Assembly (NCBI GenBank): GCA_025774555.1
Contig: JALGVT010000009.1
Span: 1 to 64,000, forward strand
Source: a candidate division LCP-89 bacterium
Lineage (GTDB): Bacteria > Electryoneota > B3-LCP
Length of the DNA stretch: 64,000 bases
Direction of reading: 5' to 3'
A program made the translations under genes and the position numbers. This document shows, one piece after another, positions 1 through 55,393 of the stretch (positions are counted from its first letter, which is position 1; each line of letters starts with the position of its first letter). A model generated the notes under the pieces. It searched no databases and was not told where the DNA came from. It worked only from the letters and a program-made list of their open reading frames with translations.

Positions 1-345
1 ACTCCCCCGAAGGGGATTCCTCGCCTATTTAGCCTTGCACCGGACGGGGTTTACCGTGCCTCCGGCTGTTACCACCCGGAGCGGTGGGCTCTTACCCCAC
101 CATTTCACCCTTACTCTCCCGAAAGATCGGGAGGGCGGTATCTTTTCTGTGGCACTTTCCATCGCCTCGCGGCGCCCTGCATTTCGCAGGCGTCCTGCCC
201 TGTGGTGTTCGGACTTTCCTCTCCCCTGTTATCTTGTTGTCGGGTCTATGAACAAAATGTAGGGCGGCAGTGCTTCTGCCGCCAGCGGGGGAAACACCCC
301 CGCCCTACGAATTTATATCAGGGGAGCGGTCACCTGGCCGCCTCT
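1..345 (-). ncRNA. rnpB: RNase P RNA, bacterial class A-like, 3' end beyond the window
   Basis: Catalytic RNA of ribonuclease P, which trims tRNA 5' leaders. On the minus strand it shows the conserved GAGGAAAGTCCG (P4, about 212-223), CACAGAAAAGATACCGCC (about 137-154), AAGGGTGAAA, GGTAAGAGCCCACC, CGGTAAACCCC and GCAAGGCTAAATAGG (about 24-38) in the standard order. The 5' strand of P3 (CTCCCCTG, 319-326) pairs with CAGGGGAG (221-228), so the RNA must begin near 340-349, directly after the zinc-ribbon gene stop. The P3 arm is enlarged by a palindromic element at 259-308. The P2/P1 3' strands lie off the left edge. Adjacency to a DUF164 zinc-ribbon gene and NIF3 is a familiar context. The 5' end is an estimate. 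Confidence 0.95.
259..308. repeat. 50-bp palindromic element inside the P3 arm of RNase P RNA
   Basis: Ends are GTAGGG (259-264) and CCCTAC (303-308). Inside lie two hairpins: GGCGGCAG-TGCTT-CTGCCGCC and CGGGGG-AAACA-CCCCCG. The architecture (short outer inverted repeat enclosing two hairpins) matches the 51-bp element at 3049-3099. The element is within the 90 nt closed by the P3 stem, so it is part of the RNase P transcript. Confidence 0.75.
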
Positions 346-44471: not shown

Positions 44472-45980
44472 CTATTTGATCAGTATTGCCTTTCCAGTAA
44501 GAACCTGATCACCAACAGCAGCGCGATAAAGGTAGACTCCGGTCGGCAGTGAATTGCCTTCAAGGATGAATTGGTGTCTTCCCGCTTTAAGGTTACCACG
44601 ATGCAAGGTTGATATCAACCGCCCATTCATATCATAGACTACTAATTCAACTGCTGACGCTTCATCGACAATCAGGCTGATAGTAGTAGTCGGATTGAAC
44701 GGATTGGGATGATTGAACAACCGCATATCAGCGCATTCGTGTTCAGTATTGCGCCTTGGTTCTTCAACGTCCTCAAAAACGTCATCGAGAAGTTGGCTTA
44801 TTTCACCGCTATGATCAGAAAGTGCGTTCATCCAATGGAAACCCATGTCAATTACGCCTGAATCCAGCATCCAGTCAGTTCGCGTCGTACCGCTGATCAT
44901 CATCGAAGCTGGATCTCCGGCATTGACACACCGACTATCCTGGGATTGACCCGCATCTATCTGGCTCAGGAAAAATAATCCGGTTGGTGGAGTACTGATA
45001 AAAAGCGGGTTAGTATTGATGTTCCCGACTCCAGACCAACCTCCTTCAACACAGCAATAGGTAATATTTGCTGCGCCGCTGATATTCGGATTCGTCGTAG
45101 CGCTATTGCCGTGAATGATGTTGTTTTTTCCTGTTACCGAACCGCTGGAATACGTTCTGATACCTCCACCTGACGATGAACTGGTGGAACTGGTGCAGCG
45201 GTTTTTAAACAGGGTATTGTTGATTAAATTTACGTTGCAGTTATAAGCGAAAACGCCGCCGCCTTTATAAACTGCGGTATTGGCAATGAAGATGTTATTG
45301 ATGAGTTGACAGTTAGGTGAGTTATAATAGCGGATCCCGCCACCTCCACAAGAACCTCATGTACTGGTCGATGAGTTCTTTGCAAAGATAGAATTTTTCA
45401 CGTTGCAGTCTGGACTGTTGTAAAGATATACACCACCACCATTCCCGGCTGAATTACCGAAGAAGACACAATCAGAAATGTTCACGGTGGCGCCTAAAAC
45501 ATAAATGCCTCCGCCGTAACTGTTATAATTGTTCTTCATCCAGCAATTGGTTATGCAAACACCATCTTCTTCGATATATACCGCGCCGCCTTTATAATCC
45601 GGATAAACGTGATTCTTGGCGTATTCGATATAAGCATAACTTAGAGTGCAGTTGCTGGAACCGTTCATGTAGCGGATACCTGCCCATTCGTCCGCCGAAG
45701 TCGGATTCTGCCTGGTGAAAATGATGGAATCCTGCTCGGTCCCCTCGGCTGTCATAGAACCGAAAACTTTGATATGGTAATGACCGGAAAACAGGAATGT
45801 CGTGCCCGGCTCGATAACCAGGCTGTTACCGGCATCGACGGTGCAGTTCCCGGTAACGATGTAGGTCCCCGGTCCCAGCGTACCCGAAATCGAACCGCTC
45901 AGGGTCGGCTGGGCATTCGCTGTCAGGACGCAGAGAACAGCAGATAAAAGTACTATCAGTGAGATTTTCACCTTTATCAT
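44472..45980 (-). CDS. Exported beta-helix protein with in-frame UGA, candidate selenoprotein (UGSC)
   Basis: 502 residues if UGA is read. Signal peptide 1-about 23, then a right-handed beta-helix with Pmp-like GGG repeats (YGGGIYVLG, NGGGVYLY, KGGGVFAY). The only in-frame stop before the end is TGA at 45357-45359 (codon 208): NSSTST-U-GSCGGGGIRYY. I translated 45356-44901 codon by codon and found no further stop. The frame then runs to NPFNPTTTISL ... LPTGVYLYRAAVG ... GKAILIK, a type IX-like sorting domain. Start chosen at 45980, with GGAGGTAAC directly upstream. Paralogue at 48138-49565 has its TGA at the same site. Without readthrough the product would lack half the helix and the sorting domain. 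Confidence 0.75.
45327..45359 (-). promoter_or_regulatory. SECIS-like hairpin after the UGA of the minus-strand gene
   Basis: After TGA (45359-45357) come 13 nt, then stem GTGGCGG (45343-45337), loop GAT, stem CCGCTAT (45333-45327). All seven positions pair, two as G-U. Spacing puts the loop about 21-23 nt after the UGA, where bacterial SECIS loops such as that of E. coli fdhF lie. Confidence 0.5.
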
Positions 45981-46362
45981 GTTACCTCCGTTCATTATGA
46001 TCTGTTTTTGACTCTGCCTGTTAATTCATACAATAATAAATTAACAATAAGTATGCCACCGGTGTGTCTGTTGAAGAATTACGATCCATTCACAATTTCT
46101 GATTGATAGCAGATAACACAGTAACTACCCATAAGGTACAAATATTGCGATGTTTTGGATTAAATTTACAGAACCTTCACCCTTGCATTCAATTCGAGAT
46201 TTCAGCAATAGTATCCCCACAAAACTCTCGATATTGCATTTTTTATGCATGTTGTGCGCAAGTTAATCAGGGGAAAAAACACGAAAAATACAAATAATCT
46301 TGTGAAATATTTCGTATATTATTCAGGAATTTCTTTAAATCTACTTAAGCCATTTTAGCGAA
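45981..46362. promoter_or_regulatory. Divergent promoter region between beta-helix and cytochrome genes
   Basis: 382 bp, AT-rich, no gene recognised. It must carry the promoters for both divergent genes. TATATT near 46314-46320 is a possible -10 for the cytochrome gene, but no matching -35 was convincing. The beta-helix gene has GGAGG at its start; the cytochrome gene has none visible. Confidence 0.5.
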
Positions 46363-48099
46363 ATGAAAAAACTCCTGCCGTTCCTTGTGATTATTTTCCC
46401 AATTCTTGCTCAGGCTCAGTTATGGTACACCGGCGACGCATCATGCGTTGGAGGGATGTGCCATAATGTTGAATACTGGGATTATAAAGAATCCGGACAC
46501 CCGCATCAACTGTATCATAATAACGGCAATCAGCCATCATCAACCGTTTGGCCCTTCACAGAGGTTCCCCCTTTACCGTCCACGTTCGGAATTCCGGTCG
46601 GTTGGTCTTTTGTGCATTATGTTATCGGTAATTACTACTGGAAAACCCTGTTCGTAGATTTAAACGGATCAATCATCACTGGAATCCCGGGCGATTCGAC
46701 TCAATGGAACGTTCAAACTCAAAGCTGGGGTGAATATCATCCCGGCGAGATGATCGGTTATGACTGCGGCAGATGTCACACCACCGGTTATGATCCGGAA
46801 GGCAACAATCCATTATATCCTCAGATGACGGGAAGCTGGGTTTTCGACGGCGTGCAATGTGAAGCATGCCATGGACCATGCTCGTCGCATTGTATGAATC
46901 CGTTTATCCCCACTCCCGGCGGACTTGACTGTGATGAATGCCATTATCGCGACCCTCAGCAGAGGCTGATATGGAAGGACGGCTTCATACTCGACCAGCA
47001 GGAAGCAGTCGAATTAGAAACCGGCGGTATGGCTGACGTCGAGTGCATCGATTGTCACGATCAACACAAATCGACCGTTTATAATCTGGGCGGCATCCCT
47101 TATAACTTCGACTGCAGTTCCTGTGATGGTCATTCCCCGGGAGGTCAGTGGATTTCCAAGCCGGACGGTGTGATGGAGGATATTGATTGCATCGAATGCC
47201 ACATGCCGTATATGGATCGTTCCGCCACAACGGAGAACGAATACAAAGCCGATGTGCGGTCACATATCTACGGGATACTGCCCGCTGCGATCACCCGGGA
47301 AGAAAACATCTATCAGATCGGCGACACTACATTCTGGCAGGTTGACCCCTTCCTCGATAAAGTATTGATCACGCTGGATTACGCCTGCCTCGGTTGTCAT
47401 GTCGATAACGGTTACCCTATCACCATGGACGAGGCGGCGGATATGGCTGCGGGATTTCATTCCGATCCGCTGGTGTCCATCAATATCGATCCTGAGGATC
47501 CACCGGTCCGTCTTCCAGCAGAAGGCGGCGACTTCCATTTTACTATGGAGGTCTTGAACAACGAATCTTATCCGATCAGTATAGATTACTGGGCGGCAAT
47601 CACAGATACGACCTATTACATCGACACCCTAATAATGGTAGAAGATGTGCTTCTTCAACCGGGAGAACAGATACTCATAGATACCACGGGGTGGCTTCCC
47701 GGAGACTCACCAGGCGGTCTATACCATCACCGGGCATACGTGCGGGAACATGTGTACCAGGAGATCTATGACTTTGACGTCTTTCTCGTTTATAAAAACG
47801 GTTCTGTCGATGTCTTGGAAGAAAAGTCAGTCAGCATACCATCCAAAGCTTTCTACAGCGCTCCCAATCCGTTCAATGCTGAAACCAAACTCACTTTCAA
47901 CCTGCAAAGCAGTAGCGAGGTGAACTTGACGATATATGACATACGAGGGAGAACTATCGCTGAATTACTTGACGAAGAATTGCAGCCCGGATTACATCAG
48001 ATCGCTTATGACGCCGGAAATCTGGGCAGCGGCGTCTATATTGCCAGACTCGTCACGGATGAGTCAACCGAAACGACTAAACTCGTGCTGATAAGATAA
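46363..48099 (+). CDS. Secreted multihaem c-type cytochrome with C-terminal sorting domain
   Basis: 578 residues. Signal peptide 1-about 19 (MKKLLPFLVIIFPILAQAQ). Haem motifs: six CxxCH (C135, C166, C190, C228, C276, C342), one CX4CH (C28 to H34, CVGGMCH) and one degenerate CSSCD (C251) in which the proximal His is Asp. Distal to residue 360 comes an Ig-like beta region and a sorting domain (NPFNAETKLTFNL ... GSGVYIARLV ... KLVLIR), which would place it on the cell surface, suggesting extracellular electron transfer or nitrogen/sulfur oxyanion chemistry. It lies between two UGA-containing beta-helix genes, 38 bp before the second. Confidence 0.9.
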   Translation: MKKLLPFLVIIFPILAQAQLWYTGDASCVGGMCHNVEYWDYKESGHPHQLYHNNGNQPSSTVWPFTEVPPLPSTFGIPVGWSFVHYVIGNYYWKTLFVDLNGSIITGIPGDSTQWNVQTQSWGEYHPGEMIGYDCGRCHTTGYDPEGNNPLYPQMTGSWVFDGVQCEACHGPCSSHCMNPFIPTPGGLDCDECHYRDPQQRLIWKDGFILDQQEAVELETGGMADVECIDCHDQHKSTVYNLGGIPYNFDCSSCDGHSPGGQWISKPDGVMEDIDCIECHMPYMDRSATTENEYKADVRSHIYGILPAAITREENIYQIGDTTFWQVDPFLDKVLITLDYACLGCHVDNGYPITMDEAADMAAGFHSDPLVSINIDPEDPPVRLPAEGGDFHFTMEVLNNESYPISIDYWAAITDTTYYIDTLIMVEDVLLQPGEQILIDTTGWLPGDSPGGLYHHRAYVREHVYQEIYDFDVFLVYKNGSVDVLEEKSVSIPSKAFYSAPNPFNAETKLTFNLQSSSEVNLTIYDIRGRTIAELLDEELQPGLHQIAYDAGNLGSGVYIARLVTDESTETTKLVLIR

Positions 48100-48137
48100 A
48101 CTCTGAATACTGCTAAAGCATCACGATAGAGGTAACT

Positions 48138-49565
48138 ATGAAGAAACTGCTTAGAGAGATCATGATTCTGACAACAATGGGGGTACTGCTTTCCGGCGCC
48201 GCGGCATTAGCTCAGACGCCCATCAGCGGCGCTCTAACCGGCAGCCTTGGTCCCGACACCTATCTAGTCGAAGGTGACTGCGAGATACCGTCAGGAGAAA
48301 CGCTCACCATCCAACCCGGGACGACTTTCCTGTTTTCCGGTCATTATTTTATGTTTATCTACGGCACTCTGATTGCGTCAGGCACGGAGAGTGATTCCAT
48401 CGTCTTTACGCGTGAGATTCCCACACAATCATGCCGCTGGGGCGGATTGCGATTCATGTCGGGCGCTCCCAGCAACAGCTTCGTCAGCTACTGCCTGATA
48501 GACAACTGTCTGAACGAACTGTACCCCTACTTTTATGGCGGCGGAATTCATTCTGACGGCGTCGATTTGATCGTTACAAACACTACTATCCAGAACTGCC
48601 AGGCGACCGATGGCGGCGGTTTCTACGGCACAACGAGCGCCCATGTTGAATTCAACGATTGCGTCATTGCCAATAATGAAGCGAGCAACGGCGGCGGATT
48701 GTACTATCAATATGGAACCTCAGGTGAGATAAATGGTTGCACGGTTATCAAGAACAACAGCACCGGCACGTGAGGCACCTGCGGTGGAGGCGGGATCCGC
48801 CTCGAAAATGCAGACGTTCTGATTACGCATTGTCTGATAGCAGAAAATATCGCCGAGATTCGCGGCGCCGGTGTTTTAGGTTTTGAAACGGACTATACTT
48901 TTATCAACAACACCATCACCCGGAATGAATGCACCGATCATAATCCGCTGAATCAACCAAATGGCGGCGGGATCTGCATGTATGAAAACATCGGCACAGC
49001 GCTGGGCAGGAATAACATTGTATGGGGAAATATGGCTCTGAACAGCCCGAATGTACCTGCCAGTTCAAATTTCAGTTATAGCTGCATTGAAGGCGGCTTG
49101 ACCGGCACCGGCAATATCGATGAAGACCCAATGTTTACCGATCCTGATGAGGGCGATTACACGCTTCAAGCTGATTCACCGTGCATAGACGCGGGCGATC
49201 CCTTGTCGCCATTAGATCCCGACAACACCGTTGCCGATATAGGAGCGTTTTTCTACGATCAGGGTTCAGGCGTCAACGATGATCCTGAAACATTGAAACC
49301 CATTGCCTTTTCACTCAGCGGAGCCTACCCCAACCCCTTTAATCCGACCACAGCAATCAGCTATCAGCTCTCAGCTCTCAGCTTTGTGAACCTGACAGTC
49401 TATGATGTACAGGGTCGAATGGTCGCTGAGCTGGTGAATGGGTGGCGAAATGCTGGGGTGCATGAGGTTATATTCAACGCGTCAGGATTGGCGTCCGGTA
49501 TCTACCTGTACCAGATGATCACTGGTGACCACACCGCCAATGGGAAGATGGTGCTGATGAAATAG
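48138..49565 (+). CDS. Exported beta-helix protein with in-frame UGA, candidate selenoprotein (UGTC)
   Basis: 475 residues if UGA is read. Signal peptide 1-about 26 (LSGAAALAQ). N-terminal region parallels the minus-strand paralogue (PGTTFLFSGHY, SDSIVFTR), followed by GGG beta-helix repeats. The single in-frame stop is TGA at 48771-48773 (codon 212): KNNSTGT-U-GTCGGGGIRLE. Translation of 48774-48977 shows no other stop, and the frame continues to NPFNPTTAISYQL ... ASGIYLYQMITGD ... GKMVLMK. AGAGGTAAC precedes the ATG. The segment ISYQLSALS is written by a short direct repeat (CAGCTNTCAG). Likely co-transcribed with the cytochrome. Confidence 0.75.
48771..48803 (+). promoter_or_regulatory. 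SECIS-like hairpin after the UGA of the plus-strand gene
   Basis: After TGA (48771-48773) come 13 nt, then stem GAGGCGG (48787-48793), loop GAT (48794-48796), stem CCGCCTC (48797-48803), seven Watson-Crick pairs. Relative to the paralogue the second pair is A-U instead of U-A, a compensatory change, and two pairs are G-C instead of G-U. Confidence 0.55.
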
Positions 49566-54361: not shown

Positions 54362-55393
54362 TCAGGACAGATCAATCGCTAAAGTATCTCTGAAATAGCC
54401 TAAGGAACCGAAATTTTCCTTGAATTTAATCAAGCCGTGGTTAGCTTCCATATTCAGCGTTGAGGTGCCAAAATCGAGGTGGCGGAAGCCGTGTCTGTAA
54501 GCCCACTGCATGGTATGATAGATCAGCAGCGGCACCGGGCGGTATTCCTGATAGTCCCAATCGTGGCAGACGTAGAAAATCAGCAAAACTCGAGCGTTGC
54601 AGACAAAATTCAGGATTCCCGCTACGGGGGTATCCTTATAATAGACCAGAGAAAGAGACAGTCTATCGCCGATCAGATCGCGAAGTTTTTTCAGTTCATC
54701 GAGCGTATGCGTCGGCGTAACACCCAGCCGGGCTCGATTATCCAGCAGCAGTGGATAGAAAGTTTCCAGGTTGGCGTCGGATAACTCGATGTCTTCGTCG
54801 AGCCTCAATTCGGATTTCATCGCTTTGCGGACCGCGGTGCGGGTCTTGTTGCAAAGAGTCTTGAAGATGTCGCCGTCAGGATAATAGAGAGGGATTGCCT
54901 GTGTAATTTCACGCTTCAGGTAATAAAATCCATTCTTGATCAGGTGAAACACAATCACGTCAGCTGGCCAGGTAGAATAAATAGACGGCGGCGGCGTCAA
55001 TATCAGTTGATCGAATCCTTCACTTTTAGCATGCCGGATGAGCGTATTGACCAGATGATCCGCGGCGTTGAAAGACAGACCGGCGGGATAGACCAAACCT
55101 CCGTAGGAAGCTCCAGGATAAGACACCAGCGCCCGTTTTCCATCCACGTCACGCACGGCTCCGGTCATCACGACCCGAGGCTCTTCGCCTACCCAGAAGA
55201 TGAGGTGATGGTTATCAAACCTCCCCGCGGCATGATAATCCAGAAAATCATGCGTTTGAAATAACGTGGCGTTTTCCGCGTGCTGCAACGCTTTTCCCCA
55301 TGCCACAGCATCCTTTTGACGGTCGAAGCGTGTGATTTTAAATGGATTCCTTCCCCTTGTGCCGGGAAGAGTTATAGCGATATCAGGGCTCAA
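54362..55393 (-). CDS. GNAT/FemAB-like acyl- or aminoacyltransferase
   Basis: 343 residues. Two GNAT-like halves: FQTHDFLDYHAAG ... RALVSYPGASYGGLVYPAG and VAGILNFVCNARVLLIFYVCHDWDYQEYRPVPLLIYHTMQWA with HLDFGTSTLNMEANHGLIKFKENFG near the end, the last typical of FemAB/BioF2-like enzymes in polysaccharide clusters. It may add an acyl or amino-acid group to a surface sugar. TTG start with AGGAGA about 7 nt upstream. 21 bp from the radical SAM gene. Confidence 0.82.
   Translation of the reverse strand: MSPDIAITLPGTRGRNPFKITRFDRQKDAVAWGKALQHAENATLFQTHDFLDYHAAGRFDNHHLIFWVGEEPRVVMTGAVRDVDGKRALVSYPGASYGGLVYPAGLSFNAADHLVNTLIRHAKSEGFDQLILTPPPSIYSTWPADVIVFHLIKNGFYYLKREITQAIPLYYPDGDIFKTLCNKTRTAVRKAMKSELRLDEDIELSDANLETFYPLLLDNRARLGVTPTHTLDELKKLRDLIGDRLSLSLVYYKDTPVAGILNFVCNARVLLIFYVCHDWDYQEYRPVPLLIYHTMQWAYRHGFRHLDFGTSTLNMEANHGLIKFKENFGSLGYFRDTLAIDLS

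Follow-up and report, generated by a model that had tools for sequence, protein, structure and literature searches.

A candidate family of exported beta-helix selenoproteins with a GAU-loop hairpin in an LCP-89 bacterium

Two exported beta-helix genes on contig JALGVT010000009.1 of a candidate division LCP-89 bacterium (assembly GCA_025774555.1) are each interrupted by one in-frame UGA, raising the question of whether this codon ends translation or encodes selenocysteine (Sec). An earlier note, made from the letters of the window (the whole stretch analysed, 64,000 nucleotides), had proposed the latter. From the comparisons below, the UGA of both genes very probably encodes Sec, a reading supported by the Sec machinery of the genome, by UGA in all family members and by a hairpin. 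We regard it as highly likely that both genes specify exported, T9SS-sorted beta-helix selenoproteins in which UGA is read as Sec by way of a GAU hairpin. SelB carrying Sec-tRNA(UCA) would read the in-frame UGA under the direction of a hairpin inside the coding sequence that has a 7-bp stem and GAU as its apical loop, and Sec would sit in an inserted loop of the beta-helix, with an invariant Cys at the third position after it (U-x-x-C).

The interrupted genes and their family

Both translations agree with the earlier description of two exported beta-helix genes, each with one UGA at the homologous codon. Gene 1 has a single in-frame stop, TGA 45359-45357, followed by GSCGGGGIR; it is codon 213 counted from the first ATG, and 208, the number first given, if the second ATG is presumed to be the start. 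Gene 2 has a single in-frame stop as well, at codon 212 as previously numbered, followed by GTCGGGGIR. The synonymous differences between the codons flanking the two UGAs were seen again, and both frames reach a sorting domain past the UGA, of T9SS type A in each.

Table 1. Features of the two genes and the gene between them (positions in the window)
Feature	Position	Strand	Basis
Beta-helix selenoprotein gene 1 (exported, predicted)	44472..45995	-	Translation; Beta_helix 1e-9, Por_Secre_tail, TIGR04183
Gene 1 in-frame UGA, proposed Sec codon (U of U-G-S-C)	45357..45359	-	Translation; family comparison
Gene 1 SECIS-like hairpin, 7-bp stem, loop GAU	45327..45343	-	Coordinates: alignment A2 columns 17-33
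Gene 1 T9SS type A sorting domain, residues 430-504	44484..44708	-	Profile match, 3' of UGA
Beta-helix selenoprotein gene 2 (exported, predicted)	48138..49565	+	Translation; Por_Secre_tail over cut-off; AlphaFold model
Gene 2 in-frame UGA, proposed Sec codon (U of U-G-T-C)	48771..48773	+	Translation
Gene 2 SECIS-like hairpin GAGGCGG-GAU-CCGCCUC	48787..48803	+	Fold and alignment
Gene 2 T9SS type A sorting domain, residues 397-471	49326..49550	+	Profile match, 3' of UGA
Multihaem cytochrome with T9SS tail, exported, between genes 1 and 2	46363..48099	+	Cytochrome_C554, Por_Secre_tail

Signal peptides were recognised by eye in both genes. Pfam Beta_helix (E = 1e-9) and Por_Secre_tail were above cut-offs in gene 1, and gene 2 gave no Pfam Beta_helix match at E<=0.01. 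Among four family members scanned, PF13229 was above cut-off in gene 1 and L076 and below it in gene 2 and L055, with TIGR04183 and Por_Secre_tail above cut-offs in all four. The AlphaFold model of gene 2 is rich in beta-strand (mean pLDDT 83), with weak PDB matches to Rhombotarget A and to alginate-epimerase/lyase beta-helices. Profiles and model together suggest that both products are T9SS-sorted parallel beta-helix proteins of the right-handed type. The cytochrome between the genes carries six CxxCH motifs and is genomic context only.

Beside genes 1 and 2, the source genome has this TGA motif at two more loci, and the survey brought the UGA genes of this beta-helix family (family A) to 22 in 8 genomes from three related families, 20 of them with both halves in one frame. 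Some named relatives inhabit anoxic sulfidic water. Of the criteria for bacterial selenoproteins, we found UGA conserved across orthologues and complete Sec machinery in the genome, whereas no homologue with Cys at the Sec position was found for family A, a point against the reading. A pattern search of 291 genomes, neutral to the codon in that TGA, TGC, TGT and TGG were all permitted at the Sec position, gave 26 matches in 12 genomes; 19 lay within beta-helix frames (7 genomes), every one of them TGA, and the remaining seven lay outside such genes. Read backwards as a control, the pattern matched 22 times in 15 genomes and is therefore by itself no proof. The second genes of L076 and L080, found via their in-frame stops, were excluded from this codon-neutral evidence.

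Neither the 131 profile alignments nor the pattern search of 291 genomes showed a Cys version of family A; at the UxxC segment, ordinary beta-helix relatives showed a gap in 73 of the 131 alignments and varied residues in 36. The family members of the 8 genomes all have UGA at this column. Random residues there, named in the earlier note as a refutation, do occur in the wider superfamily, which is without the UxxC insert, but not in the insert-bearing family. In nine gene pairs, pN/pS was 0.32-0.49 upstream versus 0.28-0.53 downstream of the UGA, with pS of 0.63-0.87, that is, synonymous sites near saturation. Protein constraint appears alike 5' and 3' of the UGA, with purifying selection on both sides. 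Among 15 members, no Cys-type column is invariant apart from that of the Sec codon and that of the Cys after it.

A SECIS-like hairpin after the UGA

A hairpin with loop GAU follows the UGA in all 22 family genes, and all seven pairs form in every one; the loop begins 20 nt from the UGA in 21 genes, including genes 1 and 2, and the spacing is 17 nt in the remaining one. Despite near-saturated synonymous sites, 21 of the 22 genes keep GGCGGGATCCGC unaltered, and GGC-GGG-ATC-CGC is identical in 18/18 while adjacent glycine codons vary. Estimated from the codon use of 15 members, the chance of GGC-GGG-ATC-CGC is ~0.012 per gene, and 10^-28.8 over 15 genes if independent, a value that is illustrative since the genes are related.

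Across 19 genes, 133 of 133 stem cells were paired, compared with 94.6% in shuffles, none of 500 reaching the observed level, and with slid controls at 38-72%, and RNAalifold recovers the same helix (consensus energy -11.88 kcal/mol). The sixth pair counted from the loop is CG in 8 of these genes, UG in 5, AU in 4 and UA in 2. Two of five covariation measures fail to exceed shuffles (pairs changed on both sides, 1 vs 0.8, 412/500; further pair types, 5 vs 4.3, 210/500), because four of the seven pairs are invariant in the 19-gene set. RNAfold of 42-nt stretches from 18 genes gave minimum free energies (MFE) of -11.9 to -21.5 kcal/mol, the hairpin not being the exact lowest-energy fold in two (L065, L074).

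The bSECIS model, as given in the legend to Fig. 2 of PMC13188914, sets a loop of 3-9 nt with at least one G in its first two positions (G[G/U] being commonest), an upper stem of 4-16 bp, a UGA-loop distance of 16-37 nt and an MFE <= -7.5 kcal/mol. With a 3-nt loop and seven pairs in 22/22 genes, spacings of 17 or 20 nt and the energies above, the family A hairpin lies within the loop, stem, spacing and MFE limits; GAU satisfies the G rule in all 22 and departs from the commonest G[G/U]. The predicted structure fits most published bacterial-SECIS limits. Like bSECIS and Escherichia coli formate dehydrogenase hairpins, it lies in the coding region with a 3-nt loop starting with G, a 7-bp stem and a distance of 20 nt, but it differs from them in its loop GAU and in the fixed GGCGGGATCCGC of 21/22 genes.

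The test for a three-base-loop hairpin was applied to 79 in-frame TGAs whose flanks are open, drawn from the window and four other genome stretches; of the three that passed it, two have loop GAT, and these are the TGAs of genes 1 and 2. A general code change is unlikely, as only these two of the 79 have a GAT hairpin and both extra tRNAs are tRNA-Sec(UCA).

Two Sec-decoding sets and further UGA families

The earlier note had advised a search for selA, selB, selD and tRNA-Sec, and all are present in the assembly: two SelA, two SelB, two tRNA-Sec(UCA) and one SelD. Two SelA occur in all 8 genomes with family A and two SelB in seven of them, whereas none of the other 31 among the 39 phylum genomes has more than one SelA or more than one SelB (two SelA: 8/8 vs 0/31). 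The co-occurrence of the SelA pair with family A may represent one evolutionary event. The two SelA lineages are deeply diverged, both sets being retained in all sampled genera, and the type-1 SelA/SelB/tRNA set is the probable decoder of the family A UGA.

Genes 1 and 2 belong to something larger: Sec decoding is encoded by two sets of genes, and the hairpin loop recurs in two exported families unrelated to family A. These are families B (U-C) and C (CxxU), T9SS-exported UGA families in related genomes; they share the loop GAU, which holds by construction in their final count, where GAT was built into the search expressions. Family B is an FG-GAP propeller with UC; in its genes, chosen by protein motif, the loop is GAU in 12/12, the loop-adjacent pair forms in 8/12 and the sixth pair in 9/12. 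A viral collection, checked for a phage link, gave 0 matches to the patterns for families A and B.

In f1, the source organism's family, the SelD hairpin loop is GGA in 6/6 genomes. The SelD scan found no UGA motif for G033 and only an unrelated match for G011, and in G005 and G025 the lowest-energy fold of SelD differs from the described hairpin. For Sec-formate dehydrogenase, considered as a second hairpin reference, the f1 matches contained no TGA. The loop scan covered the neighbourhoods of sel genes and the loci of the families, giving consistency rather than a genome-wide rate. We see an even chance that each cell has two specialised Sec-decoding systems, in which type-1 would read GAU for an exported, T9SS-sorted and possibly Sec-only set of surface selenoproteins (the UxxC beta-helix proteins, the FG-GAP propeller with UC and the CxxU protein of related genomes) and type-2 would read GG[A/U], for example in SelD.

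Alternative readings and known systems

Chance in-frame stops, through pseudogenes or sequencing errors, would suit the broken upstream frame in 2/22 copies, but the same TGA codon recurs in 8 genomes and in 20 one-frame genes under purifying selection on both sides; we rejected a chance stop or pseudogene on the conserved TGA and the alike constraint across it, and sequencing error on the same codon being TGA in 8 genomes, leaving a negligible probability. An assembly error in both copies, which the earlier note had named as a refutation, is very unlikely with 22 UGA genes across 8 genomes. The UGA might instead be a regulated stop, yielding a short product without the sorting tail and some near-cognate (Trp or Cys) read-through, with the hairpin aiding read-through or having another RNA role. 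Such a product would retain the signal peptide along with some of the beta-helix, and hairpins close to stops can promote read-through. However, the genome has complete Sec machinery including tRNA-Sec(UCA), 19/19 family genes have UGA and never another codon, an invariant Cys lies three residues after it, constraint is alike on both sides and the GAU loop recurs in two unrelated UGA families, making a regulated stop very improbable.

If UGA is Sec, we lean slightly towards UxxC being a selenol/thiol redox pair at the cell surface. A surface metal(loid)-binding or detoxification site with no redox pair is a less likely, though possible, role: according to the table of the 2026 catalogue, known UxxC/CU selenoproteins include metal-binding and mercury-related proteins, and anoxic sulfidic water as the source of some named relatives would suit it; yet no third invariant Cys occurs among 15 members, and the spacing differs in families B and C. 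As to decoding, the GAU hairpin may be read by both SelB, in which case the second set would be redundant or otherwise used and its co-occurrence with the family due to common descent. The 8 genomes come from three related families, so that the perfect match is possibly one event, and f2 genomes with only type-1 SelB have two loop types, GAU and A-GUU-R. Against this stand the retention of both sets in all sampled genera and the contrast between GGA in SelD of 6/6 f1 genomes and GAU in families A and B; we consider it plausible but somewhat short of an even bet.

Family A shares the UGA with downstream hairpin, and Sec/Cys at UxxC, with bacterial UxxC selenoproteins such as thioredoxin-like ones. 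Gene 1 has the same motif letters as the UGSC-containing protein NF041046, whose model had no match at E<=0.01 in the four family A members scanned. T9SS-exported right-handed beta-helix proteins of FCB bacteria share the repeats and TIGR04183/Por_Secre_tail with family A but, in the relatives examined, not the UxxC insert. Glycine reductase selenoprotein A (GrdA) differs from family A in fold and location. GrdA was once thought the sole selenoprotein without Cys homologues; the deep-Sep paper reports Cys forms, whereas none was found for family A. According to the 2026 catalogue, the fold of most characterised selenoproteins is thioredoxin-like, in contrast to the beta-helix and T9SS tail of family A. 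According to PMC5330540, Photobacterium profundum 3TCK and some Clostridiales have extra tRNA-Sec or a complete second Sec operon in one bacterium; the genomes with family A resemble these in duplication but differ in their two deeply diverged SelA lineages, their spread over 8 genomes of three families, the exported family and the two loop types.

Exported selenoproteins on unrelated folds would carry selenium biochemistry out to the cell surface in uncultured bacteria of the FCB group, and two diverged Sec-decoding sets with two loop types would offer a natural test of SelB signal recognition and possible parts for orthogonal Sec insertion. Family A was not found among the 119 selenoprotein families of the 2026 catalogue, as far as its available text goes, and is apparently an undescribed family of secreted bacterial selenoproteins. 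Published selenoprotein-finding methods filter on Sec/Cys homologue pairing, according to the deep-Sep paper, and a family without Cys homologues is hard to see because bacterial selenoproteins are found mainly by such pairing. For LCP-89 bacterium B3_LCP, the deep-Sep table gives 4 known and 0 new selenoproteins; this genome holds seven family A genes, one with a broken upstream frame.

A beta-helix family with an in-frame UGA

Translation bore out the claim of the earlier note that two exported beta-helix genes in the window each hold a single in-frame TGA at the homologous codon. Both proteins run from a signal-like N-terminus, judged by eye, to a C-terminal sorting domain, and they are 41% identical across the beta-helix part. 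Translation of the window revealed no in-frame stop in the intervening cytochrome gene; its product also holds a seventh CxxC within CSSCDGH and shows weak similarity, under cut-off, to the NCBIfam UshA-like (seleno)protein model. The proposed reading of the UGA as selenocysteine (Sec) likewise found its decoding machinery in the assembly, a draft of 3.37 Mb in 86 contigs (completeness 94%) that contains two SelA, two SelB, two tRNA-Sec genes above the Rfam cut-off, both with DNA anticodon TCA, and one SelD, itself with an in-frame TGA. A protein search turned up this TGA in two further beta-helix loci, one on contig C26 and one on C38.

Coordinates of the UGA genes, candidate families and neighbouring features (L numbers, fetched loci)
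Feature	Location	Strand	Description
UGA beta-helix gene	window 44472-45995	minus	translation; T9SS type A sorting domain by profile match
UGA beta-helix gene	window 48138-49565	plus	translation; T9SS type A sorting domain by profile match
Multihaem cytochrome	window 46363-48099	plus	between the two genes; six CxxCH motifs, own T9SS tail
Bacterial RNase P class A RNA	window 1-345	minus	incomplete at window end
Family B	L319 3500-5146	minus	U-C, FG-GAP repeats, T9SS tail
Family B	L320 3146-8130	plus	U-C, FG-GAP repeats, T9SS tail
Family B, other loci	L322, L323, L324		beside selD, f1 genomes
Family C	L325 80-2449	minus	
Family C	L326 2875-5217	minus	
Family C	L285 near 2871	plus	

A DNA pattern permitting TGA, TGC, TGT or TGG at the Sec codon matched 26 times in 12 of 291 genomes. 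Nineteen matches, from seven genomes, lay in beta-helix frames, all of them with TGA, and the remaining seven lay outside such frames. A reversed control pattern matched 22 times, so the evidence lies in the reading frame rather than in the pattern itself. A TGA-only pattern returned 24 stretches from the named genome collection, comprising 15 already-found family genes and nine chance matches. Named hosts are Ca. Tariuqbacter arcticus and candidate division LCP-89 bacterium B3_LCP, joined by MAGs labelled Zixiibacteriota and Calditrichaeota and two labelled just 'bacterium'; in NCBI taxonomy, both Ca. Tariuqbacter (Electryoneota) and LCP-89 belong to the FCB group. Including later-found members with the motifs U-G-A-C (genome G015), U-D-Q-C (second gene of locus L076) and U-G-S-L-C (a diverged gene of locus L080), family A totals 22 genes in eight genomes. 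Both halves share one frame in 20 of these. The exceptions are the C38 copy of the window's genome (near 51000; L025, L065) and a copy on contig C16 of genome G004 (near 55035; L072), in which the upstream part is out of frame with the TGA half, possibly through decay or assembly error.

In a full-length alignment of 15 members, the only never-varying Cys-type columns are the Sec codon and the following Cys. Nine family A pairs gave similar pN/pS upstream (0.32-0.49) and downstream (0.28-0.53) of the UGA, with synonymous sites close to saturation (pS 0.63-0.87). A region profile, run on 32 phylum genomes (all except the seven then known to carry the family), matched in 27; apart from one region's own, the sole stop-containing match was that of G015, with one TGA. 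Among 131 distinct alignments from fetched loci, the Sec column held U in 22, a gap in 73 and another residue in 36; none showed a Cys form with the partner Cys, four having Cys there without Cys at the partner position. Judged from these gaps and varied residues, UxxC lies on an inserted segment missing from the relatives seen. An AlphaFold model of the plus-strand gene product (14 sequences, Sec entered as Cys; mean pLDDT 83, pTM 0.79) consists chiefly of short strands and places Sec in a loop within residues 206-219. Foldseek matches in the PDB were weak, the best being Rhombotarget A (E 1e-5, TM 0.41-0.44); beta-helices from alginate lyase and epimerase ranked lower.

The GAU hairpin and further candidate families

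All 22 family A genes retain the seven stem pairs of a hairpin whose GAU apical loop follows the UGA after 20 nt of coding sequence in 21 genes and after 17 nt in the second gene of L080. RNAalifold recovered the identical helix unaided. All 133 cells of the first 19 genes were paired, as compared with 94.6% in shuffles (0/500 as high); slid control versions paired 38-72% of cells. Cells changed on both sides numbered six versus 1.5 in shuffles (0/500 as high; 19 genes), while stem pairs changed on both sides (1 versus 0.8) and further pair types (5 versus 4.3) showed no excess, because four of the seven pairs are invariant in this set. Counting from the loop, the sixth pair reads CG in eight, UG in five, AU in four and UA in two of the 19. 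IR is followed by Leu, His, Cys or Tyr, tracking the base required by the stem; GGC-GGG-ATC-CGC is identical in all 18 genes of the RNA-fold set and GGCGGGATCCGC in 21 of 22 family A genes. In 15 members, GGG accounts for 12% of the glycine codons. The hairpin falls within the bSECIS limits published in PMC13188914; its GAU loop differs from the common G[G/U] loop of that model.

Scanning the unevenly sampled loci for TGAs with 80 open codons on either side yielded 307, of which 38 are followed, 16-25 nt downstream, by a hairpin with a three-base loop and a stem of 6 bp or longer. The loop is GAU in 26 of these, 20 from family A and three each from families B and C, which on sequence grounds are candidates for a second and third selenoprotein family. 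Family B comprises FG-GAP-repeat proteins with a U-C motif and a T9SS tail, present in 12 copies beside selD in five genomes of f1, the family of the window's genome, all with the GAU loop 20 nt after the UGA; none turned up on C21, a contig of the window's own genome. Family C, present in three genomes of family f2, combines a CxxU motif (CPG-U-GGGTPAS; GAU loop 23 nt after the UGA) with a carboxypeptidase-regulatory-like domain and a T9SS tail. Domains were assigned from two proteins in each family.

Proposed role and relation to known selenoproteins

Most likely, the GAU hairpin directs insertion of Sec at the UGA, the protein exits the cytoplasm via its signal peptide and passes the outer membrane via the T9SS, and the beta-helix presents a Sec-Cys pair. 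The occurrence of Cys adjacent to or within three residues of Sec in three unrelated exported folds argues for a putative selenenylsulfide redox site; the main rival is that the Sec/Cys site serves metal(loid) binding.

No beta-helix, FG-GAP or T9SS family appears in Table 1 or the text portions covered of a catalogue published in 2026 (PMC13188914; 119 prokaryotic selenoprotein families), in which no word starts with 'helix'. NCBIfam models recognized, above cut-offs, the sorting tail alone in four family A, two family B and two family C members. In the parts covered, the deep-Sep study (PMC12013277) reports four known and no new selenoproteins for B3_LCP and cautions that families without Cys homologues may get filtered out. 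The open-access matches listed held no description of a selenoprotein with beta-helix or type IX secretion, or with FG-GAP/T9SS/VCBS, nor, in the best 15 of 30, of an exported or surface selenoprotein of such kind.

Two Sec-decoding sets in part of the phylum

Across 39 phylum genomes (SelA and SelB, E<=1e-60; tRNA-Sec, E<=1e-9), SelA is present twice in eight (G000-G005, G010, G015), once in 26 and not at all in five. SelB is duplicated in seven of the eight (exception G002), single in 26 and absent in six, and tRNA-Sec is duplicated in G000-G005, single in 26 and absent in seven. The UGA beta-helix genes turned up in the same eight genomes that have two SelA, and membership of G015 was predicted from SelA/SelB ahead of finding its UGA gene. 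Trees built from 37 SelB and 38 SelA proteins cluster the type-1 copies from these genomes with the f2 single copies (100/100, both trees). Of the remaining copies, those of SelA make up a single group of eight (93/88), and those of SelB fall into two clades, one of five f1 genomes and one of G010 and G015, whose attachment to the rest is too weak to show a common origin. Two tRNA-Sec types, one f2-like and one f3/f4/f5/f8-like, co-occur in f1, with only the former found in G010 and only the latter in G015. The selD gene adjoins the type-1 tRNA gene in six of six f1 genomes, and type-1 tRNA, selD and type-1 selB are clustered in G010. Photobacterium profundum 3TCK is reported to carry two complete Sec operons (PMC5330540, part covered); the open-access matches listed held nothing relevant on two SelB genes in one bacterium.

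In these data, the GAU loop occurs only in genomes with type-1 SelB, compatible with a split of labour between the two SelBs, which we put forward as a hypothesis because the genomes are related, loci were unevenly sampled and an f2 type-1-only genome has two loops. Read by eye, the SelD loop is GGA in six of six f1 genomes, whereas all 19 genomes from f3, f4, f5 and f8 have either GGA or GGU; the hairpin is GCGC-AGUUR-GCGC-like or near in five f2 genomes, and SelD of G010 is able to form CCCAA-GAU-UUGGG. G010 also has a second SelD match, in a 738-codon open frame without TGA on contig C475 (L259/L293), distinct from its UGA-containing SelD on contig C206.
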